DNA of 43,343 nucleotides from Bacteroidales bacterium (GTDB taxonomy: Bacteria > Bacteroidota > Bacteroidia > Bacteroidales > F082), in assembly GCA_024400195.1 (NCBI GenBank), contig JAKSNC010000014.1:1-43343 (forward strand). Reading direction: 5' to 3'. Numbering within the stretch: the stretch's first letter is position 1; the number at the start of each line of letters is the position of its first letter. The notes beneath the pieces are model-generated. The model was given only the letters and a program-made list of their open reading frames with translations. It had not been told where the DNA came from and did no database searches. Positions 21,800-43,126 of this stretch are shown in pieces. The position numbers and the translations under genes are program-made.

Positions 21800-22840
21800 A
21801 TGAAAGGAAAGAAAGACATATCGACTGAAGGAACTTCCAATAACTCATTGGTTGGAGCTAATTCGCGCATGATTCTATTCAAGACTGATGATGAACAGGT
21901 TAGCGTCGATGTGCTGTTTGCAGAAGAAACAGTGTGGTTAACTATTGAATCAATGTCGCAGTTGTTTGACAAATCAAGATCAACTATTAACGAGCATATT
22001 CTGAATATTTTTAAAGAAGGAGAACTCCGTGAAGAAGAAGTGTTGAGAAAAATCGGAAATTCCGATTTTTCCACCAAGCCTACTAATTTTTACAATCTCG
22101 ATGTGATTATCAGTGTCGGTTATCGTGTTAAATCATTACGCGGCACGCAGTTCCGTCAATGGGCTACGAAGCGTTTGAATGAATATATTCGTAAAGGATT
22201 TACTCTTGATGATGAAAGGTTGAAGAATCTTGGCGGAGGCGGTTATTGGAAGGAATTGCTCGAAAGAATCCGTGACATTCGTTCTTCTGAAAAAGTCTTT
22301 TATCGCCAAGTACTTGATATATATGCTACAAGTGTTGATTATGACCCGAAATCAGATGTCTCGGTTGAATTTTTCAAGCGTGTCCAAAACAAGATTCATT
22401 ATGCAGTTCATGGACAAACTGCCTCCGAAGTGATTTTCAGTCGTGCCGACGCGGAATTGGCTTTTATGGGATTGAAGAGTTTCGAGGGAAGCCGGCCTCA
22501 TTTGAAAGATGCCGTTGTCGCAAAAAATTATTTGGATGAAAAAGAGTTGAGAGCCATGGGGCAGATCGTCAGTGGATATCTTGATTTTGCAGAACGACAG
22601 GCGGAAAAGGAAATCCCGATGACAATGAAAGACTGGGCGCAGCGTCTTGATAGGATTTTGACTTCTGCCGGCGAACAGCTTTTGGATGGAAATGGCTCTG
22701 TAAGTCACGAAAAGGCGATGGAAAAAGCGACGAATGAGTATAGGAAATATCAGCAGAAGACTTTAAGTGAAGTGGAAACGGCTTTCTTGGAGTCGGTGGA
22801 AAAATTGAATAGACAAACGAGGTTGTTAGCAAATAATTGA
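21800..22840 (+). CDS. RhuM-family protein (first copy)
   Basis: This 346-residue member of the virulence RhuM family was first named for a Salmonella pathogenicity island gene and has no settled biochemical role. The N-terminal part resembles a winged-helix DNA-binding domain (TVWLTIESMSQLFDKSRSTI). The conserved block FYNLDVIISVGYRVKSLRGT and then QFRQWATKRLNEYIRKGF follows. The C-terminal half is helical. It stands between kamC and kamD, where lysine clusters normally have no gene, so it is accessory cargo. A 23-base perfect palindrome sits in codons 83-91. A paralogue lies at 29.6 kb. Confidence 0.85.
   Translation: MKGKKDISTEGTSNNSLVGANSRMILFKTDDEQVSVDVLFAEETVWLTIESMSQLFDKSRSTINEHILNIFKEGELREEEVLRKIGNSDFSTKPTNFYNLDVIISVGYRVKSLRGTQFRQWATKRLNEYIRKGFTLDDERLKNLGGGGYWKELLERIRDIRSSEKVFYRQVLDIYATSVDYDPKSDVSVEFFKRVQNKIHYAVHGQTASEVIFSRADAELAFMGLKSFEGSRPHLKDAVVAKNYLDEKELRAMGQIVSGYLDFAERQAEKEIPMTMKDWAQRLDRILTSAGEQLLDGNGSVSHEKAMEKATNEYRKYQQKTLSEVETAFLESVEKLNRQTRLLANN
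22048..22070. repeat. perfect palindrome inside the first RhuM gene
   Basis: AAAAATCGGAA (22048-22058) and TTCCGATTTTT (22060-22070) are perfect reverse complements around a single A. They encode KIGNSDFS, just before the conserved FYNLD block. Confidence 0.9.
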
Positions 22841-22887
22841 CATGGCAAAGGTGATGGTCGTTGATAATGAAGTTGGTTTAATTATGG

Positions 22888-22954
22888 CGAATTCGACACA
22901 ATTAAACCTATCGAATTCGAGGGGTTGGTAAAATAGGGGGTCGAATTCGACCCC
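22888..22954. repeat. three CGAATTCGA boxes including an 18-bp palindrome
   Basis: The 258-base gap 22841-23098 holds CGAATTCGA at 22888-22896, 22912-22920 and 22942-22950. The last is the centre of GGGGTCGAATTCGACCCC (22937-22954). An additional arm pair GGTTTAATT / AATTAAACC surrounds the first box. The rest of the gap (22955-23098) is AT-rich without a convincing gene. Confidence 0.85.
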
Positions 22955-23098
22955 TGTAAAGAAAGGAGATTGCTGAAATGAGTGAAGTGAAGATAATAGA
23001 AGAATTAAAACTTATTGAAATATAGAGATTTATAACGAAAACCAGTGTTAAATGTACCGAAATCGGTATAATTAAGAATTTGAATAAATAATATAAAT

Positions 23099-24907
23099 AT
23101 GGCAGAAAAATATAGTCCATCGAATTATTCAATTGAGCAGATTTTGAATTTTATCAAGTCTGGCGAAATTGCCATCCCTGAAATACAGCGTCCGTTTGTT
23201 TGGAAACCTAAACAAGTTCGTGATTTGATAGATTCACTTTATACAGGCTATCCGACTGGTTATTTGATCATATCTCAAAATCCCAATATGAAATTGAAAG
23301 ATGGTTCAATTTCTGAAGGAAAAAAGATAATGATTGATGGACAACAACGTGTTACATCCTTAATGACTGCCATAGCTGGTTTTGAAGTGGTAAATTCAAA
23401 TTTTACCAGAAAACGTATTAAAATATCATTTAATCCTTTTGCCACGGAAGAAGATGAGCGATTCAAGGTGCAGGATAACGCCATTTTGAAAGATAAAAAA
23501 TGGATAGCCGATATTGCAGACTTATTTGTTCCGGATTTCGATTCGTATTCTTTTATTCAAGAATACTGCGAAAAAAATACTGATATTCAGCCAAAAGAAT
23601 TAAATAAAAAAATCACCCAACTGTTGAGTATAAGAAATCGGCAAATTGGTGTAATCACTCTTGATAAGGATTTGACTATCGATGAAGTTACAGAAATTTT
23701 TATTCGAATTAACAATCAAGGTGCAAAACTGAATCAGGCCGATTTTGCCATGTCGAAAATTGCTGCGAATAGTAAATACAGTGGAAATATTCTTAGAAAA
23801 GCTGTTGATTACTTTTCGCATTTAGCCATTGAGCCTAATTGGTACGATGAAATGCAAAAAGACAAAGACTTTATGGCTACTGACTATGCACAGAAACTCA
23901 AATGGTTGAAAGATGATAGGGAAGATATTTTCGACCCTGATTATGGTGATATTTTGCGAGTCTCTTTTATGTATAAATTCGGTCGTGGCAAAATGAAAGA
24001 TTTGGTTAGTCTGTTAGGTGGCCGTGATTTTGAAACCCGTGATTATAAAGAAGAAATTGCAGAACAATCATTTAGTAATTTGCGACAAGGCGTCATGTCT
24101 TTTATGAGTGAATTTTCATTTACGAATTTTGTTTTGGCAATTAAATCGGCTGGTTTCGTGTCAAGCAAATTGATTAATTCTCAAATGACATTAGACTTTG
24201 CCTATACATTATATCTTTTGCTGAATGATGACAAGAATATTGACAAGACAAAGATAAAGCATTATGTTTCAAAATGGTATGTTCTTTCGACTTTGACAAG
24301 TAGATATATAACTTCACCAGAAACGGTGATGGATAAAGATATTAGAAGAATTACTGAAAAAGGTTTCATTGAATTTTTGAAAGAGAATGAAGAAGCTGAA
24401 CTTTCTGATACTTTCTGGAATGTTGGTTTGGTTCAAAATCTTGAAACCTCAGCCGTCAACAGTCCGTTTTTTAATACATTTTTGGCTTCTCAAATTTATA
24501 ATAGTGAAGACTCCTTGTTTATGAAGAGTGTTAAGGTGCGTGATTTGGTTACTACTATGGGAGATGTCCATCATATTTTCCCCAAGAAGTATCTTCAGAA
24601 CAGTGGAATAAACGACAAAGCCAAATATAATCAGATAGCCAACTTTACCTATTTCGATACCCAAAACAATATTTCGGTAGGTGAAAAAGCACCAAATGAG
24701 TATTTCGGGGTTGTGTTTGGTCAATGTGATACGAAAAATTGTGTTTTTGGAGATATAGATAATAAAGAAGCGTTGGAGAAGAATTTGAAAATGAATTGCA
24801 TACCATTGGATATTGTGTTGATGGATTATACGCGTTATGATGATTTTCTTTTAGAACGTCGAAAACTAATGGCGGCAAAAATTAAGGATTATTATTATTC
24901 ATTGTAA
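23099..24907 (+). CDS. DUF262/HNH protein, GmrSD- or SspE-like putative defence nuclease
   Basis: This is a 602-residue protein. The N-terminal DUF262 domain is recognised by IPEIQRPFVWKPKQVRDLIDSL and the nucleotide-binding/hydrolysis motif IDGQQRVTSL (DGQQR at residues 80-84). The C-terminal part has DVHHIFPKKYL (His491-His492, Pro495) followed by an NxxNxS-like stretch (TQNNISVGEKAPNEYF), as in the DUF1524/HNH nuclease domain. The DUF262 plus DUF1524 layout is shared by the type IV restriction enzyme GmrSD and by SspE of phosphorothioation-dependent defence. No ssp or dnd modification genes are visible here. It is more AT-rich than the kam genes around it, in agreement with recent acquisition. 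A defence function is inferred, not shown. Confidence 0.8.
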   Translation: MAEKYSPSNYSIEQILNFIKSGEIAIPEIQRPFVWKPKQVRDLIDSLYTGYPTGYLIISQNPNMKLKDGSISEGKKIMIDGQQRVTSLMTAIAGFEVVNSNFTRKRIKISFNPFATEEDERFKVQDNAILKDKKWIADIADLFVPDFDSYSFIQEYCEKNTDIQPKELNKKITQLLSIRNRQIGVITLDKDLTIDEVTEIFIRINNQGAKLNQADFAMSKIAANSKYSGNILRKAVDYFSHLAIEPNWYDEMQKDKDFMATDYAQKLKWLKDDREDIFDPDYGDILRVSFMYKFGRGKMKDLVSLLGGRDFETRDYKEEIAEQSFSNLRQGVMSFMSEFSFTNFVLAIKSAGFVSSKLINSQMTLDFAYTLYLLLNDDKNIDKTKIKHYVSKWYVLSTLTSRYITSPETVMDKDIRRITEKGFIEFLKENEEAELSDTFWNVGLVQNLETSAVNSPFFNTFLASQIYNSEDSLFMKSVKVRDLVTTMGDVHHIFPKKYLQNSGINDKAKYNQIANFTYFDTQNNISVGEKAPNEYFGVVFGQCDTKNCVFGDIDNKEALEKNLKMNCIPLDIVLMDYTRYDDFLLERRKLMAAKIKDYYYSL

Positions 24908-24970
24908 TTATCAGGATTATATGTCAACTATGAAACCCATATCAAGCAACACATCAATTTCCGCATCAGA

Positions 24971-24987
24971 AAACGGGACTCCCGTTT
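24971..24987. repeat. 17-bp palindrome near the start of the YhcG remnant
   Basis: AAACGGGA (24971-24978) and TCCCGTTT (24980-24987) flank a single C inside the coding frame. A weaker pair CAACGC / GCGTTG follows at 25031-25050. Confidence 0.8.
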
Positions 24988-25236
24988 CGTTCTACTCCGA
25001 AGTGCGTCAAATAATTGACGAGGCCCGCAGCAACGCAGTGCGAAGCGTTGACTTCTGCCGCGTGATGATGTATTGGAATATTGGAAGACGTATTTTTGAG
25101 GAAGAACAGCAGGGAAAGGATAGGGCTGAATACGGAACGTATCTAATCAAAAATCTTGCTGAGAATTTGGAACCGGAATACGGAAGTGGATTCTCGATAC
25201 GTCAATTGGAGAGAGCAAGAAAATTTTATCGGTTGT

Positions 25237-25271
25237 ATTCAATTGCGTCCGCAGTGCGGACGCAATTGAAT
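25237..25271. repeat. 35-bp palindrome inside the YhcG remnant
   Basis: ATTCAATTGCGTCCGC (25237-25252) and GCGGACGCAATTGAAT (25256-25271) are perfect 16-bp complements around AGT. They lie in the codons for SIASAVRTQLN. Confidence 0.92.
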
Positions 25272-25479
25272 TGGTCTCAGTATAAGCTACTTATATCAAT
25301 CGACGATTCTGATAAGCGTGAATATTACGAGCTTGAAGCAGTCAACAATTGGCATCACAATATTCACTATATTTGCCAACAGTGGAACAGTTGAAAAAAG
25401 AAATAGAAGAAGTTAAGAGTTTAGTGAAACAACTTGATAAAGAAGAATAAACAAATCATAAAGAAATAAACTTAATACA

Positions 25480-27036
25480 ATGCAAAAGAGCAAATTAGGA
25501 TTAGATTTTGAGAAAGTTGAGTATGCCAGAGGTCTGGCGAAAAACATTGCAGAAGATGTTCAGTCTTTTGTTGAACAGTACACGACTGTTGCCGTCGAGC
25601 GCACGCTGTGCCGCCTGATGGGTATCGACGGCGTTGATGAAAACGGCGTTCCGTTGCCAAATGTGGTGGTGGAATACCTGAAAGAAAAAGGTGTCCTGAA
25701 TGAAGGTGCCTTGTTCTTCATCGCTAATGCCATGATTCAGACCAAGTTGAATCCACAGCAGATTGCCGAAAAGGTCGCTGCCGGCGAACTCGACATTACA
25801 AAGGTCGTGACAAAAGACCAGAAGCAGATTGCAGAAGCCCTGCAACCAGTCATTGACGAAAGCATGAGCCGCATCCGCACACGTCGTGCCCGCCGCGAAC
25901 ATTATCTCGACACTATCGGCGAAGGCCCGAAGCCTTACCTTTACATCATCGTTGCTACAGGTAACATCTACGAAGATGTCGTTCAGGCTCAGGCTGGCGC
26001 ACGCCAAGGTGCCGATGTCATTGCCGTAATCCGTACTACGGGTCAGAGCTTGCTCGACTATGTGCCTTACGGCGCTACGACAGAAGGTTTCGGCGGCACT
26101 TTCGCCACTCAGGAGAACTTCCGCATCATGCGTAAGGCTCTTGATGAAGTAGGCGAGGAGCAAGGCCGTTACATCCGTCTTTGCAACTACTGCTCAGGTC
26201 TTTGCATGCCTGAAATCGCCATCATGGGTGCTTTCGAAGGCCTCGATGTCATGCTGAACGATGCACTTTACGGCATTCTTTTCCGCGACATCAATATGCA
26301 ACGCACCTTGGTTGATCAGTATATGTCGCGCATTATCAACGGTTTCGCTGGCGTAATCATCAATACTGGTGAAGACAATTATCTCACCACCGCTGATGCC
26401 GTTGAAGCAGCTCACACCGTTTTGGCTTCCGACCTCATCAACGAACAACTCGCTTTGATGGCTGGTCTGAAAGAAGAACAGATGGGCTTAGGTCACGCAT
26501 TCGAAATGGATCCGATGCTTGAAAACGGTTTCCTCATGGAACTGGCTCAGGCTCAGATGACACGCGAAATCTTCCCGAAGGCAACGCTGAAATACATGCC
26601 GCCTACCAAGTTCATGACGGGCAACATCTTCCGTGGTCACATTCAGGATGCTTTGTTCAACATGATTGGCATTTGGACGCACCAAGGCATTCAGCTTTTG
26701 GGTATGCCTACCGAAGCCATCCACACACCATTCATGAGCGACCGTTACCTGTCAATCGAAAACGCCAAGTATATCTTCAACAACATGAAGAGCATTGGCG
26801 ACGAAATGCAGTTTGCCGAGGATGGTATCTGCCGCCGCCGCGCTAAGGAAGTGGTTGACAACACCATCAAACTGTTGGAAGAAATCAACAAGGAAGGTCT
26901 GTTTACGGCACTCGAAAAGGGTATCTTCGGCGATGTGAAACGCCCGAAGAACGGTGGTAAGGGTTTGGAAGGCGTCACCATGAAGGGTGAAAACTACCTG
27001 AACCCATTTGTTGAACTGATGAAAGGTAAGAGATAA
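25480..27036 (+). CDS. kamD: lysine 5,6-aminomutase, alpha subunit
   Basis: This 518-residue large subunit of the adenosylcobalamin- and PLP-dependent mutase moves the terminal amino group of beta-lysine (or D-lysine) to carbon 5. The sequence has the expected length and typical segments (ARQGADVIAVIRTTGQSLLD, YVPYGATTEGFGGTFATQEN) of the TIM-barrel that houses the cofactor. It is cytosolic and forms a complex with KamE downstream. In a clean lysine cluster it would directly follow kamC; here 3.7 kb of accessory DNA lies in between. Confidence 0.96.
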   Translation: MQKSKLGLDFEKVEYARGLAKNIAEDVQSFVEQYTTVAVERTLCRLMGIDGVDENGVPLPNVVVEYLKEKGVLNEGALFFIANAMIQTKLNPQQIAEKVAAGELDITKVVTKDQKQIAEALQPVIDESMSRIRTRRARREHYLDTIGEGPKPYLYIIVATGNIYEDVVQAQAGARQGADVIAVIRTTGQSLLDYVPYGATTEGFGGTFATQENFRIMRKALDEVGEEQGRYIRLCNYCSGLCMPEIAIMGAFEGLDVMLNDALYGILFRDINMQRTLVDQYMSRIINGFAGVIINTGEDNYLTTADAVEAAHTVLASDLINEQLALMAGLKEEQMGLGHAFEMDPMLENGFLMELAQAQMTREIFPKATLKYMPPTKFMTGNIFRGHIQDALFNMIGIWTHQGIQLLGMPTEAIHTPFMSDRYLSIENAKYIFNNMKSIGDEMQFAEDGICRRRAKEVVDNTIKLLEEINKEGLFTALEKGIFGDVKRPKNGGKGLEGVTMKGENYLNPFVELMKGKR

Positions 27037-27062
27037 GAGAAGACGATTTGACATTTAGATAA

Positions 27063-27108
27063 TTTGACAATTAGACAGTCTAAAAGTCAAATAAGTCCAA
27101 TTGTCAAA
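27063..27108. repeat. hairpin of TTTGACA words between kamD and kamE
   Basis: TTTGACAATTAGAC (27063-27076) pairs with GTCCAATTGTCAAA (27095-27108) with one mismatch. Extra TTTGACA/GTCAAA words lie on both sides (27047-27116). The 117-base gap has no ORF. Confidence 0.7.
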
Positions 27109-27153
27109 GGGTCAAAAAATCCAATTTTATAACGAATAATAAACTACAAGATA

Positions 27154-27942
27154 ATGAGCGAAGGATTATATTCAATGGAAGCTAAGGATTTCGACAAAAC
27201 CTTAGACTTAACGAAAATCAAACCTTACGGCGACACCATGAACGATGGTAAGGTGCAACTGAGTTTCACGCTGCCGGTGCCGTGTGGCGCGGAGGCTGTC
27301 GAAGCTGCCAAACAAATGATGAAGAAAATGGGATTGGAGAATCCGGGCGTGGTCTATTACAAGGAGCTGACTCCGGGCTTCACTTTCTTCAACTGCTACG
27401 GAAGCTGCACACACACAGTTGATTACTCGACAATTTATGTTCCGAAAGTCGAGTCAAACACGATGGATATGTACGAAACCGATAAGTTCATCAAGGAAAA
27501 CATCGGTCGTAAGATTGTCGTTGTTGGTGCATCAACCGGAACTGATGCTCACACTGTGGGTATCGATGCTGTCATGAACATGAAGGGTTATGCCGGTCAC
27601 TACGGACTTGAACGCTACGAAATGATTGAAGCCTACAACCTTGGTTCGCAGGTTCCTAACGAAGAATTTATCGCCAAAGGCATTGAACTTCATGCTGACG
27701 CATTGATCATTTCACAGACGGTGACCCAGAAGGATGTTCATATTAAGAACATGACCAATTTCATCGAACTGATGGAAGCCGAAGGTCTGCGCGACAAGAT
27801 GATTTGCTGCTGCGGTGGTGCCCGTGTCACTCACGAACTGGCCAAGGAACTCGGTTTTGATGCTGGTTTCGGCATGAACACATACGCTGATGACGTGGCT
27901 TCATTCATCGTTCAGGAAATGGTGAAAAGAAATATGAAGTAA
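27154..27942 (+). CDS. kamE: lysine 5,6-aminomutase, beta subunit
   Basis: This 262-residue B12-binding subunit has the base-off cobalamin motif TDAHTVGID with His133, and Lys144 (NMKGYAGHYG) as the PLP Schiff-base residue. The numbering agrees with the characterised clostridial enzyme. The C-terminal Rossmann-like domain includes MICCCGGARVTHELAKELGF. It works with KamD, and residues and length are intact. Confidence 0.97.
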   Translation: MSEGLYSMEAKDFDKTLDLTKIKPYGDTMNDGKVQLSFTLPVPCGAEAVEAAKQMMKKMGLENPGVVYYKELTPGFTFFNCYGSCTHTVDYSTIYVPKVESNTMDMYETDKFIKENIGRKIVVVGASTGTDAHTVGIDAVMNMKGYAGHYGLERYEMIEAYNLGSQVPNEEFIAKGIELHADALIISQTVTQKDVHIKNMTNFIELMEAEGLRDKMICCCGGARVTHELAKELGFDAGFGMNTYADDVASFIVQEMVKRNMK

Positions 27943-27957
27943 AAATTCAAAACAGTC

Positions 27958-27988
27958 TTTGAATTTGGGGATAAAATATGTAAATTTG
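27958..27988 (+). promoter_or_regulatory. internal promoter before atoA
   Basis: TTTG at 27958-27961, a 19-base spacer and TAAATTTG at 27981-27988 fit the Bacteroidota consensus fully. It gives the distal genes (atoA onward) their own promoter. Confidence 0.75.
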
Positions 27989-28005
27989 TATCTTTAAAAA
28001 GATAC
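27988..28005 (+). promoter_or_regulatory. stem-loop at the atoA transcript start
   Basis: GTATCTTT, AA, AAAGATAC forms a perfect 8-bp stem just after the -7 element. It would be the first structure of the leader RNA, or an operator for a dimeric regulator. Confidence 0.5.
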
Positions 28006-28055
28006 TTTTACATTGGTATGAAATTAAGTAATTAACAAATAAAACTTTTCGAATT

Positions 28056-28715
28056 ATGGATAAAAACGAAATGAGAGAGGTTATCGCTAAAAGGGCGGCT
28101 AAAGAACTGCATGACGGTGATGTCGTCAATCTTGGAATCGGTATTCCAACACTTATCCCTGACTATCTTCCGGAAGGCGTCTCGGTGACACTTCAAACAG
28201 AAAACGGTGCGATGGGCATGGGCAGCACACCGGCAGAAGGCACGGAAGACAAGAACCTCATTAATGCTGGTGGCGGTTTCATCACCCTCAATCCGGGAGC
28301 AAGCACTTTCGATTCGGCAACATCATTCGCCATCATTCGCGGCGGGCACGTAAACGTGTCGTTCTTGGGTGCTCTTCAGGTTGATGAAAAAGGCAATCTC
28401 GCCAACTGGATTATTCCTGGAAAAATGGCTCCGGGCATGGGCGGCGCAATGGACCTTGTTGTTGGTGCAAAACGCGTGATTCTCACCATGGAACACACAC
28501 AGAAAGGCGCTCCGAAAATCTTGAAGGAATGCACTCTGCCTCTTACGGCTGCCGGTCAGGTTAATATGATTATCACAGAGATGGGTGTTATGGAGATTAC
28601 TCCGGAAGGCATCGTCCTTACCGAGAAACATCCTGAATTTACTGTCGAGGATATTCAGGCTGCAACAGAGGCCAAACTCATTGTATCGCCAAACCTCAAG
28701 TCAATGATTGATTGA
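28056..28715 (+). CDS. atoA: butyryl-CoA:acetoacetate CoA-transferase, subunit B
   Basis: This 219-residue beta subunit carries the catalytic glutamate of family I CoA transferases in TENGAMGMG (Glu49), after GDVVNLGIGIPTLIPDYLP. It partners with the atoD product encoded at 14.7 kb. It is transcribed from a strong promoter directly upstream and is followed at once by crt, whose ATG is 11 bases after the stop. Confidence 0.95.
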   Translation: MDKNEMREVIAKRAAKELHDGDVVNLGIGIPTLIPDYLPEGVSVTLQTENGAMGMGSTPAEGTEDKNLINAGGGFITLNPGASTFDSATSFAIIRGGHVNVSFLGALQVDEKGNLANWIIPGKMAPGMGGAMDLVVGAKRVILTMEHTQKGAPKILKECTLPLTAAGQVNMIITEMGVMEITPEGIVLTEKHPEFTVEDIQAATEAKLIVSPNLKSMID

Positions 28716-28726
28716 AGTCTCTGATT

Positions 28727-29509
28727 ATGAACTATCAATATTTGAAGGTAGAGGATAGGAATGACGGCATATCGGTGCTCACTATATCTGCTCCGAAAAC
28801 GCTGAACGCCCTTAACTCAACTATTTTGCGTGAGATTGACGACTATGTCAGTAATATCGACCTAAGCCGAGTCAAGTCGTTGGTTATCACTGGCGACGGT
28901 GAGAAGTCTTTTGTGGCTGGTGCCGACATCTCTGAGATGGTGCATCTCGGCGAAAAAGAGGGTTTCGAGTTGTCGAAACTCGGAGCAGGTGCGTTCCGTA
29001 AGCTTGAACAACTCCCGATTCCGACAGTGGCAGCCGTCAATGGTTTTGCCTTGGGCGGTGGCTGTGAACTTGCGATGGCGTGCGACATACGTATCGCCTC
29101 GGTCAATGCCAAATTCGGTCAGCCTGAAGTCGGCCTCGGCATCATTCCCGGATTCTCGGGAACTTACCGTCTGTGGAAACTCGTCGGTCAGGCCTACGCT
29201 AAGGAACTCATCTTTACGGGAAAGATGATTGACGCGCAGGAAGCACTTCGTATAGGTCTCGTGAATGCCGTTTGTGAGCCGGCGGAGCTGATGAACAACG
29301 TCTTCGCCATGGTAGGTAAGATGCTCAGAAACGCCCCGTTGGCAATAGCGGCTGCTAAACGCTGCATTAACAATGGCTTCGATATGACCGCCGATGAAGC
29401 TATCGCACTCGAAAATGTCGAGTTCGGAAAGCTGTTTGCGACAGAAGACCAGAAAAACGGCATGTCGGCGTTCCTCGAAAAGAGAAAAGTCATGTTTAAA
29501 GGGAAATAA
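28727..29509 (+). CDS. crt: enoyl-CoA hydratase (crotonase)
   Basis: This is a crotonase-fold enzyme of 260 residues from ATG 28727. A TTG start at 28712 would add five residues and overlap atoA, which is less likely. The oxyanion-hole segments are SFVAGADISEM and NGFALGGGCELAMACD, and the catalytic-Glu region is FGQPEVGLGIIPGFSGT. It would interconvert crotonyl-CoA and 3-hydroxybutyryl-CoA, linking Kal and the Hbd enzyme. The gene ends before a hairpin and an accessory RhuM gene. Confidence 0.9.
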   Translation: MNYQYLKVEDRNDGISVLTISAPKTLNALNSTILREIDDYVSNIDLSRVKSLVITGDGEKSFVAGADISEMVHLGEKEGFELSKLGAGAFRKLEQLPIPTVAAVNGFALGGGCELAMACDIRIASVNAKFGQPEVGLGIIPGFSGTYRLWKLVGQAYAKELIFTGKMIDAQEALRIGLVNAVCEPAELMNNVFAMVGKMLRNAPLAIAAAKRCINNGFDMTADEAIALENVEFGKLFATEDQKNGMSAFLEKRKVMFKGK

Positions 29510-29523
29510 ATTACAATCAGTTA

Positions 29524-29560
29524 TCAGCTAACAGCTTGGTTTGCCCAAACTGTTAGTTGA
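29524..29560. terminator. 37-base hairpin after crt
   Basis: TCAGCTAACAG (29524-29534) pairs with CTGTTAGTTGA (29550-29560) with one G-T pair, and TTGG/CCAA extends the stem inward. There is no T-run, so it may be a weak terminator or one of the dispersed word hairpins. It separates crt from the second RhuM gene. Confidence 0.55.
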
Positions 29561-29601
29561 TTTCTGAAATTCTGAAAGCGGATTTTAGCAAAAAAGGCAT
29601 T

Positions 29602-30618
29602 ATGAGTGATATTGTACCAAACAAGCAGAATCTCATTATCTACAACACCATTGATGGCAAGGTGAGTGTGACGATGATGGCTCGTGATGGCAATGTCTGG
29701 ATGAACCAGAAGCAGATGGCAGAACTTTTTGCCACCTCGATTCCAAATGTCAATATTCATATATCTAACATACTGAATGAAAATGAATTGGATAAAAATT
29801 CAGTTATTAAGGATTATTTAATAACTGCTGCTGATGGTAAGCATTACAATGTCACTTTTTACACCTTGGATATGGTTTTGGCGGTTGGTTTTAGAGTAAA
29901 GGGAAAACGCGGCACGCAATTCCGCATTTGGGCCAATCAGCACTTAAAGGAGTTCATCGTGAAAGGTTTCGTACTTGATGATGAGCGACTCAAGAACCCT
30001 GATGGCCGTCCCGACTACTTTGATGAGTTGCTTGAACGCATCCGCGATATTCGTGCTTCGGAGAAACGATTCTACCAGAAACTACGCGATTTATTTGCCC
30101 TAAGCAGTGACTACGATTCCACCGACAAAGCTACACAGATGTTATTCGCCGAAACACAGAATAAACTGCTTTACGCTGTCACTCACCAAACGGCTGCCGA
30201 AATCGTTGTCAGCCGCGCCGATGCTTCGCAGCCCAACATGGCACTCACTTCATGGAAAGGTTCGGTGGTGCGCAAGCAAGACATCTATATCGCCAAGAAC
30301 TATCTCCGCGCTGATGAGATTGACTTGCTCAACCGTCTTACGACACTTTTCCTTGAATCGGCTGAAATCCGTGTGAAGGAACGTCTCGACTTGACAATCA
30401 ACTATTGGCGACAGAATGTTGATATTCTTCTTCAATTCCAAAACAAAGATGTGCTTCGCGACTCCGGCAGTGTCTCCAATAAGGAAATGGAAGCCCGTGT
30501 TGAGGATGTCTATAAGCAGTTTGACCAGTTTCGCAAACAAGCCGACGCACAACTTGCCGACCAAATGGACGATGAAGAACTGAAGCATTTGGAACAGCTG
30601 ATTGAAAAACGAAAATAA
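29602..30618 (+). CDS. RhuM-family protein (second copy)
   Basis: This is a 338-residue RhuM-family member from ATG 29602. An upstream TTG at 29557 is in frame but poorly placed. Visible blocks are NVWMNQKQMAELFATSIPNV (helix-turn-helix-like), FYTLDMVLAVGFRVKGKRGT and QFRIWANQHLKEFIVKGFVL. The C-terminus is helical with EELKHLEQLIEKRK. It is only distantly similar to the copy at 21.8 kb, so this is not a recent duplication. It carries its own palindrome at the homologous position. It splits crt from hbd and is interpreted as accessory cargo. The function of the family is unresolved. Confidence 0.87.
   Translation: MSDIVPNKQNLIIYNTIDGKVSVTMMARDGNVWMNQKQMAELFATSIPNVNIHISNILNENELDKNSVIKDYLITAADGKHYNVTFYTLDMVLAVGFRVKGKRGTQFRIWANQHLKEFIVKGFVLDDERLKNPDGRPDYFDELLERIRDIRASEKRFYQKLRDLFALSSDYDSTDKATQMLFAETQNKLLYAVTHQTAAEIVVSRADASQPNMALTSWKGSVVRKQDIYIAKNYLRADEIDLLNRLTTLFLESAEIRVKERLDLTINYWRQNVDILLQFQNKDVLRDSGSVSNKEMEARVEDVYKQFDQFRKQADAQLADQMDDEELKHLEQLIEKRK
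29801..29827. repeat. perfect palindrome inside the second RhuM gene
   Basis: CAGTTATTAA (29801-29810) and TTAATAACTG (29818-29827) enclose a 7-base loop, in codons 67-76 (SVIKDYLIT). This is the same alignment column as the palindrome in the first RhuM gene. Confidence 0.88.
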
Positions 30619-34950: not shown

Positions 34951-34972
34951 TTGAATTTATGTTCCGTCCCGT

Positions 34973-35002
34973 AGAGACGCGATTTATCGCGTCTCTATTT
35001 TT
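34973..35002 (+). terminator. intrinsic terminator after etfA
   Basis: A perfect 10-bp stem AGAGACGCGA / TCGCGTCTCT with a TTTA loop is followed by ATTTTT. It ends the lysine operon. Confidence 0.88.
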
Positions 35003-36320: not shown

Positions 36321-39300
36321 ATGAAAAATATATTAGGTTTGGATTTGGGGACGAACAGCATAGGCTGGGCGGTAGTCAGCACAAATAGTGAAGGGAACCC
36401 TCAGAAAATTGAGGGAATGGGAAGTCGAATCATTCCAATGGACGCAACCATTTTAGGAGATTTTGACAAGGGAAATACTAAATCTCAAACATCGGAACGC
36501 ACAGGGTTAAGAGGTGTTCGTCGTTTGCATGAACGTTATCTGCTTCGCCGCGAAAGATTGCATCGTGTTTTGTCCGTAATGGATTTCATTCCGAAACATT
36601 ATGCTGAAAAATTAGATAAATACGGACATTTTCTGAAAGAAAGCGAACCTAAATTGGCATGGGATAATGGTCGTTTTTTGTTTATGGATTCATTTCAAGA
36701 AATGCTTGCCGATTTTGCTGAAAATCAACCCGGATTAGTTAGCGGTGGCAAAAAAGTTCCATTGGACTGGACCGTTTATTATCTTCGCAAAAAAGCACTG
36801 ACACAAGCAATTACCAAAGAAGAGTTTGCTTGGATTCTTCTTCAATTCAACCAAAAACGTGGTTATAATCAGTTGAGGGACGAGGAAGAGGAACAAAGAA
36901 ACGATGTCGAAGAAACAATTATTTCAACCAAAATATTAAAAGTTGAAAAGCAAGAAAAAGATAAAAAATACGAGAAATATTGGTACCAAGTTTCCTTAGA
37001 AAACGAGCAAGAGCCATATAGGGCTGCTTTCTACAACGATATTTCGTTTTGGGAAGGAACAACACGTGATTTTGTTAAAAAAGTGACCATCCTTAAAGAC
37101 GGAAGCCAAAAAACCGAATTTTCTTTCTTGCCTACTTTTGATGAAATAGACAAGATGGATAGTAAACGCAAGGACCAAATGTATTCCAAAATAAAATTAA
37201 AGACCGAAAAATCCATCATTGATTCCGGCAATACCGTCGGCGAATACATTTACAATTCCCTGCTGAATAATCCCGACCAGAAAATCATCGGAAAACTGGT
37301 GCGCACCATTGAAAGGAAGTATTTCAAAGACGAATTAAAAGCAATCATCAATAAGCAGAAAGAGTTTATTCCAGAATTAAACGATCCTAAGTTGTTTGCT
37401 GCCTGCATTGAAGAACTTTATCCGTCTAATGATGACTATAGAAACAGCATTGCCTCCAGAGATTTTACTTATTTGCTCGTTGAAGACGTCCTGTTTTATC
37501 AGCGTCCGTTAAAAAGCAAAAAATCCACAATCGCCAATTGCCCATACGAATCTCATTTTGACAAAGAAGGTAAAGAATATCCCATTAAATGTGTTGCCAA
37601 ATCCAATCCTTTGTTCCAAGAATTCCGTTTGTGGCAGTTTGTACAAAATTTGAAAATTTATCAGAGAGAAAGATTTGTAAACGACGGGCAAATGGACTTG
37701 TTCGGAACTGCATCAACGGGCAAACTTGAAACCGATGTTGATGTAACCAACGAATTCATCCGTTCAGAAGAGGAGTTGGTAGCTCTGTTTGATTTTTTGA
37801 ACGACAAAAAAGAAATTACCCAAGATTCTCTTTTGACTACATATTTCAAAATCAAGAAGCCTAAAGTGAAAGACTCCGCACTGCCATTCCGTTGGAATTA
37901 TGTGGAAGATAAGATATATCCATGCAACAAAACACGCGCCATTCTTTTGGCAAAACTCACTAAAGAGGATAAAACAAAACTCACCAAAGAATTAGAATAT
38001 GCACTTTGGCACCTGCTTTACTCTGTGAATTCCAAGACTGAAATTGATGCGGTTTTTGCTGAAAACAAACGAAATAATTCTAAAGGCATTTATCATAAAC
38101 TTTTGGAAGCCGGTTTTTCTGATGAAAGCATTGAGAATTTGAAGAAAGCCAAATTTGACGAAAAAGATTACGGTTCTTATTCGGAGAAGGCCATCAAGAA
38201 ATTGTTGGCACTGATGCGCATGGGTAAATATTGGAATCAGGACAATATTGATGCGAAAACACTTGATAGGATTGAGAAAATTATTTCGGGAGAATACGAT
38301 GAAAAGATCCGCAATCGTGTGCGTGAAAAAGCCATCAATCTTACTGAAATCTCCCATTTCAAAGGACTTCCAATCTGGCTTGCTTGTTATATAGTTTACG
38401 ACAGACATTCGGAAGCCAGCGATATTCAGAAGTGGGAAAAACCAGAAGACATTGACAAATGGTTGAAAGACTTCAAGCAGCATTCTATGCGAAATCCCAT
38501 TGTTGAGCAAGTTGTTACAGAAACTATGCGTACCGTGCGCGACATTTGGAAACAGGTTGGGACTATTGATGAAATACACGTCGAATTGGGCCGCGAGATG
38601 AAAAATCCTGCTGACAAGCGCAAAAAGATGACTGAACGCATCAACGAGAATGAAAACACCAACCTGCGCATCAAAGCAATGCTGATGGAGTTTCAAAATC
38701 CCGAATTTGGCATTGAGAATGTACGACCATATTCTCCTACACAACAAGATATTTTGAGAATCTACGAGGAAGACGCGCTGCTGAATTTGTCTAACGAGGA
38801 TAGCGATTTTGAATTCGTTTCCAAAATATCAAAAGCCGCACAACCATCTAAAAATGACGTACTTCGCTATAAGTGTTGGCTCGAACAAAAATATCGCTCA
38901 CCTTATACAGGAGAAATGATTCCATTGAGTAAACTATTCACCACAGCATATGAAATAGAGCACGTCATCCCGCAATCTCGATATTTTGATGATTCTTTCA
39001 GCAACAAGATTATTTGCGAATCAGAAGTAAACAAATTAAAAGACAATCGACTAGGGTTTGAATTTATCAAAAACTACAAAGGCGAAAAGGTCACTTTAAC
39101 CGGAGGAAAAGTCGTCGAAATATTCTCAATAGACGCTTATCAGGATTTTGTCAGAAAACATTATGCAAAAAATCCATCCAAGATGAAAAAACTGTTGATG
39201 GATGATATTCCCGACAAATTCATCGAAAGACAATTGAACGACAGCCGATACATCAGCAAGTATATTAAAGGTATTCTATCCAATATCGTTCGTGAAAAGG

Positions 39301-40976
39301 ATGAAAATGGCAACTTGGAACAAGAAGCTGTCTCCAAAAATCTTATTTCTTGCAACGGAAACATTACTGATAGATTAAAGAAAGATTGGGGAATGAATGA
39401 CATTTGGAACCGCATTATTCTGCCTCGATTCATCAGAATGAACGAGCTGACCAATTCCACACATTTCACCTCTACCAATACAAGTGGTGAAATCATTCCC
39501 GCTATGCCTTTGGAATTGCAGAAAGGTTTCAACAAAAAGCGTATCGATCACCGACATCACGCTATGGATGCCGTCGTTATCGCCTGCACCACCCGAGACC
39601 ATGTAAATCTGTTGAACAACGAATCTGCTATGTCTGAGCACAAAGAAAACAGATATGCACTTTCCCACAAACTGCGCCGTTACGAAACAGAAGAAATCTC
39701 TAAAAAAGTCAAAAATTCAGATGGATGTTGGGTTGATGGTGAAAAAACCAAAAGGCTTGTTCCAAAAGAATTCTTCAAACCTTGGAAAACTTTTACACAA
39801 GACGCACAAAGTGCATTGGAAAATATTGTGGTCAGTTTCAAACAGAATCTGCGTGTCATTAACAAAATGGTCAACCATTATCAGCATTTTGAAAATGGCA
39901 AAAAGGTGATGATCAAGCAAGAAAAGGGCGAAAGTTGGGCCATCCGCAAATCCCTGCACGCTGCCACTGGTTGGGGAGAAATCAATCTGCGCTTCAAGAA
40001 AGAAGTTTCACTGAATGAAGCACTAAAGAATCCAAAAACCATCGTCAACAAAGATTTCAAAGAGAAAGTATTGGAACTGCTTGGTGAAAACAGAGATGCT
40101 AAATACATCAAGAAATATGTTGAGGACAACAAAGACGTCTGGTCGGATATCGATCTCAAAAAAATAGAGGTTTACTATTTTACTAAAGATACCAAAGATC
40201 GCTATTTTGCAACTCGCTTTATCAGTGATTTGGTTTCCTATTTTTCCAGTGCCACAACATACGATGCAGCCATCAAGAAAATTGAAGGCATTACCGATAC
40301 GGGCATTCAGAAAATTCTCAGAGCACACTTGGCAGCAAAAAACAATGACCCAGTCTTAGCATTCTGCGCTGATGGCATTGATGAAATGAATCAAAACATA
40401 GTCGCTCTCAACAATGGAAAATTACACAAACCAATATACAAAGTGCGCCGTTTTGAAAAAGCCGACAAATTCGCTATCGGACAGATAGGCAACAAAGGAA
40501 AGAAATTTGTGGAAGCAGCCAAAGGAACGAACCTGTTTTTCTTCGTTTATGAAAATAATGACAAAAAACGTTCATTCGTTACCGTTCCTCTTAACTTAGT
40601 CATTGATTGCCAAAAACGTTTCACCAAAAATTGGGTAAGTGAATTAGATAAAATCTTGAAAGAGACCAACGAGGTTGCGCAAGATACACATTTCTTATTT
40701 TCTCTTTCCCCAGGCGACTTGGTTTATTTGCCTAAGAATGGAGAAACAACTGTTGATGACAAGACGAGAATTTATAAAATGGTATCGTCCAGCGGTCCTC
40801 AATGTTTCTTTGTCTATCAAAAAGTTGCGAGTCCAATAATTGACAAATTAGAATTCTCATCTTTGAATAAAATGGAGCGTTCTATCACAGGCGAAATGAT
40901 TAAAGAAGTCTGCGTTCCAATAAAGGTAGATCGTTTAGGAAATATCATTGAAATAAACAATTGTAGCGTGGAATAA
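36321..40976 (+). CDS. cas9: CRISPR-associated endonuclease Cas9 (type II-C-like)
   Basis: This is a 1551-residue RNA-guided DNA endonuclease. RuvC-I is at the N-terminus (LGLDLGTNSIGWAVV, Asp8), followed by an Arg-rich bridge helix at ~53-80 (RGVRRLHERYLLRRERLHRV). A long recognition lobe extends to ~740, with charged inserts around 175-320. RuvC-II has Glu755 (IHVELGREM). HNH has His881 (YEIEHVIPQSRYFDDSFSNK). RuvC-III has HHAMDA with Asp1083. The C-terminal ~400 residues form the PAM-interacting part. All catalytic residues are intact, so cleavage is expected. The length is at the upper end for II-C enzymes, in the range of large Bacteroidota members. Subtype II-C is inferred from the absence of csn2 and cas4 and from the anti-repeat. 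Confidence 0.97.
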   Translation: MKNILGLDLGTNSIGWAVVSTNSEGNPQKIEGMGSRIIPMDATILGDFDKGNTKSQTSERTGLRGVRRLHERYLLRRERLHRVLSVMDFIPKHYAEKLDKYGHFLKESEPKLAWDNGRFLFMDSFQEMLADFAENQPGLVSGGKKVPLDWTVYYLRKKALTQAITKEEFAWILLQFNQKRGYNQLRDEEEEQRNDVEETIISTKILKVEKQEKDKKYEKYWYQVSLENEQEPYRAAFYNDISFWEGTTRDFVKKVTILKDGSQKTEFSFLPTFDEIDKMDSKRKDQMYSKIKLKTEKSIIDSGNTVGEYIYNSLLNNPDQKIIGKLVRTIERKYFKDELKAIINKQKEFIPELNDPKLFAACIEELYPSNDDYRNSIASRDFTYLLVEDVLFYQRPLKSKKSTIANCPYESHFDKEGKEYPIKCVAKSNPLFQEFRLWQFVQNLKIYQRERFVNDGQMDLFGTASTGKLETDVDVTNEFIRSEEELVALFDFLNDKKEITQDSLLTTYFKIKKPKVKDSALPFRWNYVEDKIYPCNKTRAILLAKLTKEDKTKLTKELEYALWHLLYSVNSKTEIDAVFAENKRNNSKGIYHKLLEAGFSDESIENLKKAKFDEKDYGSYSEKAIKKLLALMRMGKYWNQDNIDAKTLDRIEKIISGEYDEKIRNRVREKAINLTEISHFKGLPIWLACYIVYDRHSEASDIQKWEKPEDIDKWLKDFKQHSMRNPIVEQVVTETMRTVRDIWKQVGTIDEIHVELGREMKNPADKRKKMTERINENENTNLRIKAMLMEFQNPEFGIENVRPYSPTQQDILRIYEEDALLNLSNEDSDFEFVSKISKAAQPSKNDVLRYKCWLEQKYRSPYTGEMIPLSKLFTTAYEIEHVIPQSRYFDDSFSNKIICESEVNKLKDNRLGFEFIKNYKGEKVTLTGGKVVEIFSIDAYQDFVRKHYAKNPSKMKKLLMDDIPDKFIERQLNDSRYISKYIKGILSNIVREKDENGNLEQEAVSKNLISCNGNITDRLKKDWGMNDIWNRIILPRFIRMNELTNSTHFTSTNTSGEIIPAMPLELQKGFNKKRIDHRHHAMDAVVIACTTRDHVNLLNNESAMSEHKENRYALSHKLRRYETEEISKKVKNSDGCWVDGEKTKRLVPKEFFKPWKTFTQDAQSALENIVVSFKQNLRVINKMVNHYQHFENGKKVMIKQEKGESWAIRKSLHAATGWGEINLRFKKEVSLNEALKNPKTIVNKDFKEKVLELLGENRDAKYIKKYVEDNKDVWSDIDLKKIEVYYFTKDTKDRYFATRFISDLVSYFSSATTYDAAIKKIEGITDTGIQKILRAHLAAKNNDPVLAFCADGIDEMNQNIVALNNGKLHKPIYKVRRFEKADKFAIGQIGNKGKKFVEAAKGTNLFFFVYENNDKKRSFVTVPLNLVIDCQKRFTKNWVSELDKILKETNEVAQDTHFLFSLSPGDLVYLPKNGETTVDDKTRIYKMVSSSGPQCFFVYQKVASPIIDKLEFSSLNKMERSITGEMIKEVCVPIKVDRLGNIIEINNCSVE

Positions 40977-41009: not shown

Positions 41010-41837
41010 ATGAGCAACATCAAACTGTTTCAAGACAAAAAAATCCGTTCCACTTGGAATGAAGAAGAAGAACAATGGTATTTTTCCGTTGTTGATGTGG
41101 TGGAAGTATTAACAGACTCTCCCAATCCCCGCCAGTATTGGCGCAAGATGAAAGATCGTGATTTGAAAGAATATGAAACGTACCCAATTTGGGTACAGTT
41201 GAAATTATCGGCTCCAGATGGGAAAATGCGAAATACCGATTGCGCCAACGTCAAATCCCTGCTGCGCATCATTCAATCCATTCCGTCACCTAATGCGGAA
41301 CCTTTCAAGCAATGGTTGGCGCATGTGGGCTACGAAAGATTGCAGGAAATAGAAAATCCTGAACTGGCACAGGAAAGGATGAAAGAACTTTACGAAAAGA
41401 AAGGTTACCCAAAAGAGTGGATTGACAAACGACTGCGCGGAATTGCCATCAGGCAAAATCTCACGGATGAATGGAAAAAACGCGGCATTACCAAGGAACA
41501 GGATTTTGCTATTCTTACCGCAGAAATCAGCAAAGCAACTTTCGGAATGACTCCTTCTGAATACAAGGAATTCAAAGGCCTCACCAAAAAGAACCAGAAC
41601 CTGCGTGACCACATGAACGACCTTGAGCTTATTTTTACAATGCTTGGCGAACGCGTCACGACTGAAATTTCTGAGAAAGAAGAGCCCAACTCCTTTAATG
41701 AAAATAAAAAGATAGCCCAACGCGGCGGAAAAGTTGCCGGCATTGCCCGTGAAGCCACGGAAAAAGAAATAGGGCACAGCATTGTCTCAAAAGAGAACTT
41801 CCTGCTTAATAAAAACGAGAACAACCTAATAGAGTAA
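41010..41837 (+). CDS. Bro-N domain protein (phage antirepressor-like) inserted in the cas operon
   Basis: This 275-residue protein has an N-terminal Bro-N-type DNA-binding domain (STWNEEEEQWYFSVVDVVEVLTDS in the domain position, then NPRQYWRKMKDRD). The family block RIIQSIPSPNAEPFKQWLAH follows, with YERLQEIENPELAQERMKEL and a C-terminal helical part ending in AQRGGKVAGIAREATEKEIG, as in DinD/antirepressor-like proteins. It begins 33 bases after cas9 and ends two bases before cas1, so it is in the same transcript and may influence cas1 translation. Type II-C operons normally run cas9-cas1-cas2, so this gene is an insertion. A 17-bp palindrome sits in its coding frame. A regulatory or anti-CRISPR-like role is possible but undemonstrated. 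Confidence 0.82.
   Translation: MSNIKLFQDKKIRSTWNEEEEQWYFSVVDVVEVLTDSPNPRQYWRKMKDRDLKEYETYPIWVQLKLSAPDGKMRNTDCANVKSLLRIIQSIPSPNAEPFKQWLAHVGYERLQEIENPELAQERMKELYEKKGYPKEWIDKRLRGIAIRQNLTDEWKKRGITKEQDFAILTAEISKATFGMTPSEYKEFKGLTKKNQNLRDHMNDLELIFTMLGERVTTEISEKEEPNSFNENKKIAQRGGKVAGIAREATEKEIGHSIVSKENFLLNKNENNLIE
41180..41196. repeat. 17-bp palindrome inside the Bro-N gene
   Basis: GTACCCA (41180-41186) and TGGGTAC (41190-41196) enclose ATT, in the codons for TYPIWVQ. It has an AATT-containing centre like the palindromes near the first RhuM gene, and lies just before the conserved APDGKMR block. Confidence 0.8.
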
Positions 41838-41839
41838 TC

Positions 41840-43126
<1,287 letters not shown>

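Follow-up and report, generated by a model that had tools for sequence, protein, structure and literature searches.

Roadblock repression from an operator within a coding sequence is known from the action of PurR on purB. Operators of the LacI family lie in promoters, and a recognition code for this family has reportedly been derived from the local binding sites of autoregulated transcription factors. Palindromic DNA can also be read in frame inside genes, as in the Rickettsia palindromic elements, which are mobile inserts of shared sequence found at different places in unrelated genes. Here, we analyse a 43,343-nucleotide stretch from the draft genome of a Bacteroidales bacterium (contig JAKSNC010000014.1, positions 1 to 43,343; the whole stretch is hereafter called the window), in which two genes of the RhuM family each carry a different palindrome at the same place in the coding sequence. 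This dyad is under selection as DNA, and it corresponds to the recognition helix in the product of its own gene. We consider it likely that each RhuM gene holds the operator of its own product, and that the bound dimer represses its own synthesis by roadblock. The recognition side of this proposal is strongly supported; the regulation side is plausible.

The proposal resembles the roadblocks by PurR and LacI in that a repressor sitting deep in the transcription unit would stop RNA polymerase, independently of the promoter. It differs from them in several ways. PurR and LacI block other genes, whereas the RhuM site sits in the gene of its apparent reader, is conserved across the family, shares bases with the codons of the DNA-binding domain and evolves together with that domain. 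As in the LacI family, recognition-helix residues that set specificity co-vary with sites close to the gene of the regulator; unlike in that family, the only RhuM site found is intragenic. The site is also unlike the Rickettsia palindromic elements, since it is a regular part of one domain, is specific to each gene, follows the helix and, for each window copy, occurs once in the genome.

The two RhuM genes lie on the forward strand at 21800-22840 (copy 1, 346 residues) and 29557-30618 (copy 2, 353 residues from a TTG codon, with an ATG at 29602). Both match PF13310 (E 5.9e-105 and 1.5e-103), and the scores for the two proteins, 350.5 and 345.9 bits, are far above the curated cut-off of 33.7. 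Written as arm-centre-arm, the palindrome of copy 1 is 12-1-12 (GAAAAATCGGAA-A-TTCCGATTTTTC, 22047-22071) with the inner triplet CGG, and that of copy 2 is 10-7-10 (29801-29827) with the inner triplet AAG. Both are among the four longest in the window (arms of at least 9, loop of at most 8). A preliminary description, made from the letters of the window, had placed the first around a single A in codons 83-91, which holds, and had given it arms of 11 bp, which are really 12 bp; its account of the second (10-bp arms, 7-base centre, codons 67-76) was recovered as such, with codons counted from the ATG at 29602. As it also noted, both palindromes come before an FY(N/T)LD block, the FYNLD and FYTLD codons being directly 3′ of them. 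In a third RhuM gene of this draft genome, the same place is taken by yet another palindrome (12-3-12).

The preliminary description had held that such palindromes at one column of two divergent genes were unlikely by chance and had proposed scoring them against codon-shuffled controls. RhuM genes were accordingly collected from GTDB genomes (best 80 loci), from the same phylum and from viral contigs (best 80), where 171 motif matches gave 162 distinct frames. The arm score counted Watson-Crick pairs at the ten positions 3-12 from the centre, and the control shuffled synonymous codons within each gene. At least 8 of the 10 pairs were found in 159/162 frames (shuffled mean 34.7), and all ten in 93/162 (shuffled mean 0.45), a strong enrichment that bears out the suspicion and rules out chance combined with codon bias. 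Further frames behaved alike, with eight or more pairs in 44/44. The relaxed motif gave no frame in 27 of 196 loci. All of these except L007 were read again from a different anchor: of the 26, 24 showed 9 or 10 paired positions, a set that may include near-duplicates (L117 and L118 are nearly alike), while L113 and L190 gave no frame there, L113 showing 10/10 pairs in a later reading. Overall, 227 of 230 RhuM-type frames, which come from bacteria, archaea and viral contigs, have at least 8/10 arm pairs. A less clean control also speaks against chance: among other open reading frames of the same loci, 35/455 reached 8/10 and 8/455 reached 10/10; these control frames were filtered by in-frame family motifs only, and some may overlap family genes in another frame. 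The placement is equally regular. Counted back from the FYNLD codons, the best centre of symmetry falls at exactly 43, 52 or 61 nucleotides in 157/162 frames, i.e. in steps of 9 nucleotides or three codons, and the conserved W(L/M)T codons upstream are 119 nucleotides from the palindrome at the median, the 5% point and the 95% point alike.

The coupling analyses excluded 5 of the 162 frames, whose best centre lay elsewhere, leaving 157 genes, which use 72 distinct 10-nucleotide half-sites. The arms therefore co-vary, with the compensatory changes between relatives that the preliminary description had suggested looking for. Position 7 is paired in 157/157 genes and uses all four pair types; pairing holds in 155 or 156 genes at positions 4, 10, 11 and 12, and in fewer genes at positions 8 (117) and 9 (137). 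Because the palindromes are enriched over the shuffles and their arms co-vary, we agree with the earlier suggestion that this column requires a palindrome. The selected element could instead be a hairpin of RNA or single-stranded DNA, e.g. one that acts in translation or decay, and the non-paired centre of 5-7 bases in many sites offers a possible loop. An RNA stem would favour G-U pairs, however, and the arm mismatches of the 162 frames are about equally G-T (25) and A-C (20), so there is no sign of one. Nor would a hairpin be expected to co-vary with recognition-helix residues, as described below, and we regard it as very improbable.

To locate what the half-site follows, its average-product-corrected mutual information with each well-covered protein column was computed, with columns numbered on a fragment from locus L012, so that 56-63 are residues 60-67 of window copy 2. 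For half-site positions 3-9, the covariation outside the palindrome-encoded segment peaks sharply at columns 56-63, which span the turn of a helix-turn-helix and the first part of its recognition helix and are encoded about 20 codons upstream of the palindrome. The inner triplet couples to E63 (z 11.4), T60 (8.2), R59 (7.7), K56 (6.7) and D57 (5.7), positions 6-7 to R59 and V58 (z 7.8 each) and N62 (5.6), and positions 8-9 to V58 (z 6.8) and N62 (5.2). The resulting code can be read directly: E63 goes with CGG, Y63 with CGA or AAA, QN..L with AAG, DN..L with GAG, PA..K with TCC and S[TV]..R with GCA. Both window copies fit it. The recognition-helix codons of copy 1 (21971-21994, forward strand, placed by alignment with copy 2 and its predicted fold) read K-S-R-S-T-I-N-E and accompany CGG, the last residue, E, fitting E with CGG or AGG; those of copy 2 (29734-29757, forward strand, in the predicted helix-turn-helix; residues 60-67 from the TTG) read T-S-I-P-N-V-N-I and accompany AAG. 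Thus, the two palindromes are unrelated in sequence, as had been noted, though they occupy the same place, because the recognition helices differ; each matches the helix residues of its own gene.

The code holds among distant genes. When the triplet was predicted from neighbours that are less than 50% identical elsewhere, helix windows reached an accuracy of 0.66, against an all-window median of 0.155 and 0.10 for the rest of the protein. Of 42 held-out genes, 38 had their triplet predicted correctly by the nearest helix among the 157 genes, where 8.4 were expected; this held-out set was unscreened for closeness to the training genes and leaves out 2 of 44 new frames, whose centre is at -35, the 42 having usable offsets. 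The four misses comprise two frames that share an unseen helix, one Tyr63 gene that fits the CGA rule and one that is off by a base. On a tree built without the helix and site columns, the inner triplet changes 69 times, compared with 97 for shuffled labels; some phylogenetic inertia is thus present. As a full account it was rejected, given the 69 changes and the success of the helix among genes less than 50% identical. Of 47 sister pairs, 23 differ in both the triplet and residues 59/60/63, 13 in the helix only, 11 in neither and none in the triplet only (P = 1.4e-4); one of 300 random residue trios was equally good.

The half-site might follow the helix solely through the protein, if the recognition helix packs on the palindrome-encoded wing strand and the dyad is a by-product. 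In keeping with this, the palindrome-encoded residues 81 and 84 co-vary with the half-site as the helix does. Synonymous codons decide otherwise. At position 81, the Arg codon is CGG or AGG with Glu63 in 53/53 genes and CGA with Tyr63 in 7/7 (P = 2.6e-9), one further codon, CGT, accompanying Asp63; for Lys, AAA goes with Tyr63 in 4/6 and AAG in 0/56. Selection on the protein alone would not make synonymous codons follow the helix, and coupling within a protein does not make the arms complementary, which leaves this explanation scarcely credible unless codon choice has some other cause. Since the helix predicts the half-site, and even synonymous codons follow the helix, it is very probable that each RhuM protein reads the palindrome of the gene that encodes it. 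Of the options raised in the preliminary description, a self-recognition operator for the encoded winged helix is thus the one that the helix-to-site prediction supports. The other two are not favoured. A mobile hairpin of the Rickettsia type would be an insert that retains its sequence, whereas the RhuM site regularly forms part of the wing and varies between genes; a site for insertion or recombination would not follow a recognition helix residue by residue.

A sequence search for solved relatives found none for RhuM, Bro-N or DUF1016, and for ORF6N returned weak coiled-coil matches only (E 0.34 or more). An AlphaFold2 model of copy 2, from 36 sequences, has a mean predicted local distance difference test score (pLDDT) of 83.9 and a predicted template modelling score (pTM) of 0.65. 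In this model, helices 51-57 and 62-74 form a helix-turn-helix, and strands 84-90 and 96-103 form a two-stranded wing. The N-terminal part of RhuM is thus predicted to be a winged helix-turn-helix, in which the palindrome encodes the first wing strand (residues 84-90). The nearest solved fold by Foldseek is DdrC of Deinococcus radiodurans (8u0g, 7qvb), a DNA-binding protein that is dimeric in 8u0g; with an E of 1.1e-3 and a template modelling (TM) score of at most 0.36, this match is not firm.

How might such a site work? We propose that the encoded winged helix-turn-helix protein reads the palindrome as a dimer, using it as a double-stranded operator; its recognition helix would read about 5-7 bp per half-site, in DNA that at the same time codes for the first wing strand of that domain. 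Once bound, the protein would obstruct RNA polymerase within the coding sequence (212 and 259 bp past the start codon in the two window genes), and self-repression would be independent of whatever promoter lies upstream. Such a built-in operator would suit genes that land singly inside foreign operons. Binding itself, the geometry of the dimer, repression by roadblock and the advantage in portability are all inferred. A LacI roadblock at a strong operator is reported to have cut transcription by 73-96% at a spacing of 102 bp (PMC4132739).

Palindromes of this kind also occur in four other families. Single-protein scans gave few loci (2 for Bro-N, 10 for ORF6N and 7 for DUF1016), and alignments were therefore used for these three. 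At least 7 of 8 pairs were found at a family-specific place in 42/45 ORF6N frames (shuffles 2.85) and 33/49 Bro-N frames (shuffles 4.9); a palindrome was present in 58/65 DUF1016 frames (shuffles 5.0), at a more variable position; frames lacking an upstream RFP (ORF6N) or the helix and LSW-like motifs (DUF1016) had been dropped by pattern, uncounted. In KilA-N, at least 8 of 9 pairs occur in 21/25 frames (shuffles 0.75). Coupling of the half-site to the protein was computed for RhuM, ORF6N, Bro-N and DUF1016, the KilA-N sample being 25 frames only. It is strong for the ORF6N helix (Q32, z 17.5), where outer positions also follow residues just downstream, and clear for Bro-N (residues 49, 52 and 53, z 3.9-6.0). 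Among genes less than 50% identical, the Bro-N segment NPRDYWFRMK predicts four half-site bases with an accuracy of 0.63 (median 0.06), and for ORF6N the accuracy is 0.58 (median 0.23). The palindromes of ORF6N, Bro-N, DUF1016 and KilA-N may likewise be built-in autorepression operators for genes that land in foreign operons.

Two of these families are represented in the window. A DUF1016_N gene fragment of 157 residues (24921-25394, forward strand; PF17761, E 6.4e-35) has no YhcG_C match, its C-terminal nuclease part being missing, and it contains the longest palindrome of the window under the limits given above, 17-1-17 at 25237-25271, directly before the LNWSQY motif as in other members. 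The Bro-N gene (275 residues, 41010-41837, forward strand; PF02498, E 3.2e-11) carries an 8-1-8 palindrome at the family position (41180-41196). The DUF1016 fragment and the genes of loci L004 and L006 are shortened, keeping the N-terminal part and the palindrome and losing the usual C-terminal part; such genes could be free repressors of relatives that share their address. Conversely, RhuM N-terminal parts are fused to other C-terminal parts at loci L005 and L007, the partners being a PLD-like match (weak, below cut-off) and ORF6N (L007), which suggests that the helix-turn-helix and its palindrome are a portable module. The RhuM-N/ORF6N fusion of L007 has two tandem in-frame 13-1-13 palindromes, slightly different from each other (1815-1868 of that locus), and the duplicated site also repeats nine residues.

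Each RhuM palindrome of the window is single in the draft genome (G000; 1.84 Mb, 89.7% complete), allowing up to 3 mismatches. More widely, no second copy of the own site was found for 137 RhuM genes in 704 kb of loci (repeats counted), where frames with at least 9/10 pairs in L008-L196 and their fetched flanks of up to 2.5 kb were searched for the same 5-nucleotide centre and spacing with at most 2/16 arm mismatches; a foreign half-site gave 1/129. The absence of a second site from these flanks argues against looping to a promoter site. It thereby bears on the possibility that the domain reads the palindrome mainly for activation or DNA looping rather than for roadblock repression. Sequence evidence for reading cannot separate repression from activation, and in E. 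coli K-12 yhcG (DUF1016; L307) a 15-3-15 palindrome and smaller ones of 7-1-7 and 6-3-6, all with the core CAGAC/GTCTG, lie within 102 nucleotides (coding nucleotides 309-410), which could allow cooperative binding. We hold activation or looping to be quite unlikely. The yhcG trio itself resembles an operator array inside a gene.

By raw count, the draft genome carries a heavy load of these families, with 7 RhuM, 11 DUF1016, 6 Bro-N, 3 KilA-N and 2 ORF6N profile matches, some of them shared between profiles, split or below cut-off. Paralogues within one genome share the inner triplet in 5/59 pairs (permutation mean 11.1, P = 0.014); that paralogues avoid shared sites is suggestive only. A separate repeat, AGACGCGATNNATCGCGTCT (window 34972-34997; contigs C1, C24 and C31), has six copies in the genome and 0 in the reversed control. 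Three of the copies, on contig C24, flank the RhuM gene of locus L001, one on one side and two on the other.

The genes stand as single inserts in operons. Copy 1, a GmrSD-like gene and the DUF1016 fragment sit between a mutS-like gene and an aminomutase gene that presumably belongs to a lysine-fermentation operon, and copy 2 lies between what we take to be two later genes of that operon. The Bro-N gene is another such insert, this time in a CRISPR locus, between genes that we read as cas9 (36321-40976) and cas1 (41840-42775). In another genome of the same genus (L548), a KilA-N gene with a 16-0-16 palindrome occupies the mutS-like/aminomutase gap. The window retains a probable scar of such a gene at 22877-23075, where blastn matches of 44, 23 and 21 bases, each 95% identical, correspond to the leader (22877-22920), the end (22959-22981) and the internal palindrome (23055-23075) of the L548 gene. 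The gap looks like a repeated landing place, given this scar and the KilA-N gene still present in the related genome.

These surroundings allow the evidence for own-gene reading, which would be the same, to be taken differently: reading might serve mobility or identity, with the protein, a partner nuclease or a recombinase acting at the palindrome on incoming or sister copies for homing, copy exclusion or domain exchange. The single inserts, the gap occupied by different genes of this sort in two congeneric genomes, together with its probable scar, the PDDEXK nuclease domain of E. coli K-12 YhcG, and the joining of RhuM-type N-terminal parts to other C-terminal parts in L005 and L007 all speak for it. 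However, the site is mid-gene and intact, away from insertion junctions; none of the 137 RhuM neighbourhoods has a second one; cutting the own gene would be self-destructive; and the two window RhuM proteins match no Pfam nuclease family. A role in mobility or identity therefore seems unlikely. The window RhuM, DUF1016 and Bro-N genes also match the PADLOC single-gene defence candidates PDC-S05, PDC-S02 and PDC-S13. A 2026 paper calls this class poorly associated with other defence loci and cites for it a preprint on defences embedded in other immune systems; the descriptions at hand of these candidates make no mention of an internal operator or of self-recognition. With an in-gene operator, such a gene would remain self-controlled in whatever operon it sits.

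Having argued for a self-operator, we would note several points that weigh against it. First, a roadblock would also lower the downstream genes of the host operon, which is not obviously useful. Second, not all of the site follows the helix: outer positions 10-12 follow D89 (z 21.9), Y93 (17.0) and other residues at or after the wing, residues that mark subfamily architecture rather than the helix. Third, 3/162 RhuM frames fall below 8/10 pairs, the sharing of sites between paralogues at 5 nucleotides is not significant (1/59 pairs, mean 3.5, P = 0.12), and the held-out genes may be judged in the light of their unscreened make-up. Fourth, Foldseek returned no solved structure like the copy 2 model at E <= 0.001. 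Finally, other families fit less well: in DUF1016, covariation outside the encoded part is weak, the presumed helix residues reaching a z of 3.4 or less, no better than some other columns (n = 58), and the longest palindrome of E. coli K-12 dinD (Bro-N) is 7-2-7, with no arm over 7 bp.

To our knowledge, RhuM, DUF1016/YhcG, Bro-N, ORF6N and KilA-N are common in bacterial and phage genomes, and the role of most members is unknown. A literature search, with most subscription papers and bioRxiv outside its scope, found no recognised account of self-read intragenic palindromes in RhuM or related genes. The present data suggest that several gene families hold an in-gene palindrome that changes with the encoded DNA-reading part, by which the protein recognises, and probably switches off, its own gene. 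If each such gene carries its own operator, both the site and the code of the residues that read it are known from the gene sequence alone, and single genes under their own control in unrelated operons, such as the lysine-fermentation and cas9-cas1 loci, would be explained. More tentatively, at least five families (RhuM, ORF6N, Bro-N, DUF1016 and KilA-N) may be self-addressed genes, in which a domain and its target within the same few hundred bases form one evolving unit and the address is a private identity. A gene copy would then be silent where its address is occupied and expressed at once in a naive cell, and paralogues in one genome would be mutually deaf. These families would also provide a recognition code of natural origin that can be read out, and a very large number of proteins matched with their sites, from which the recognition of DNA by winged helices may be learned.

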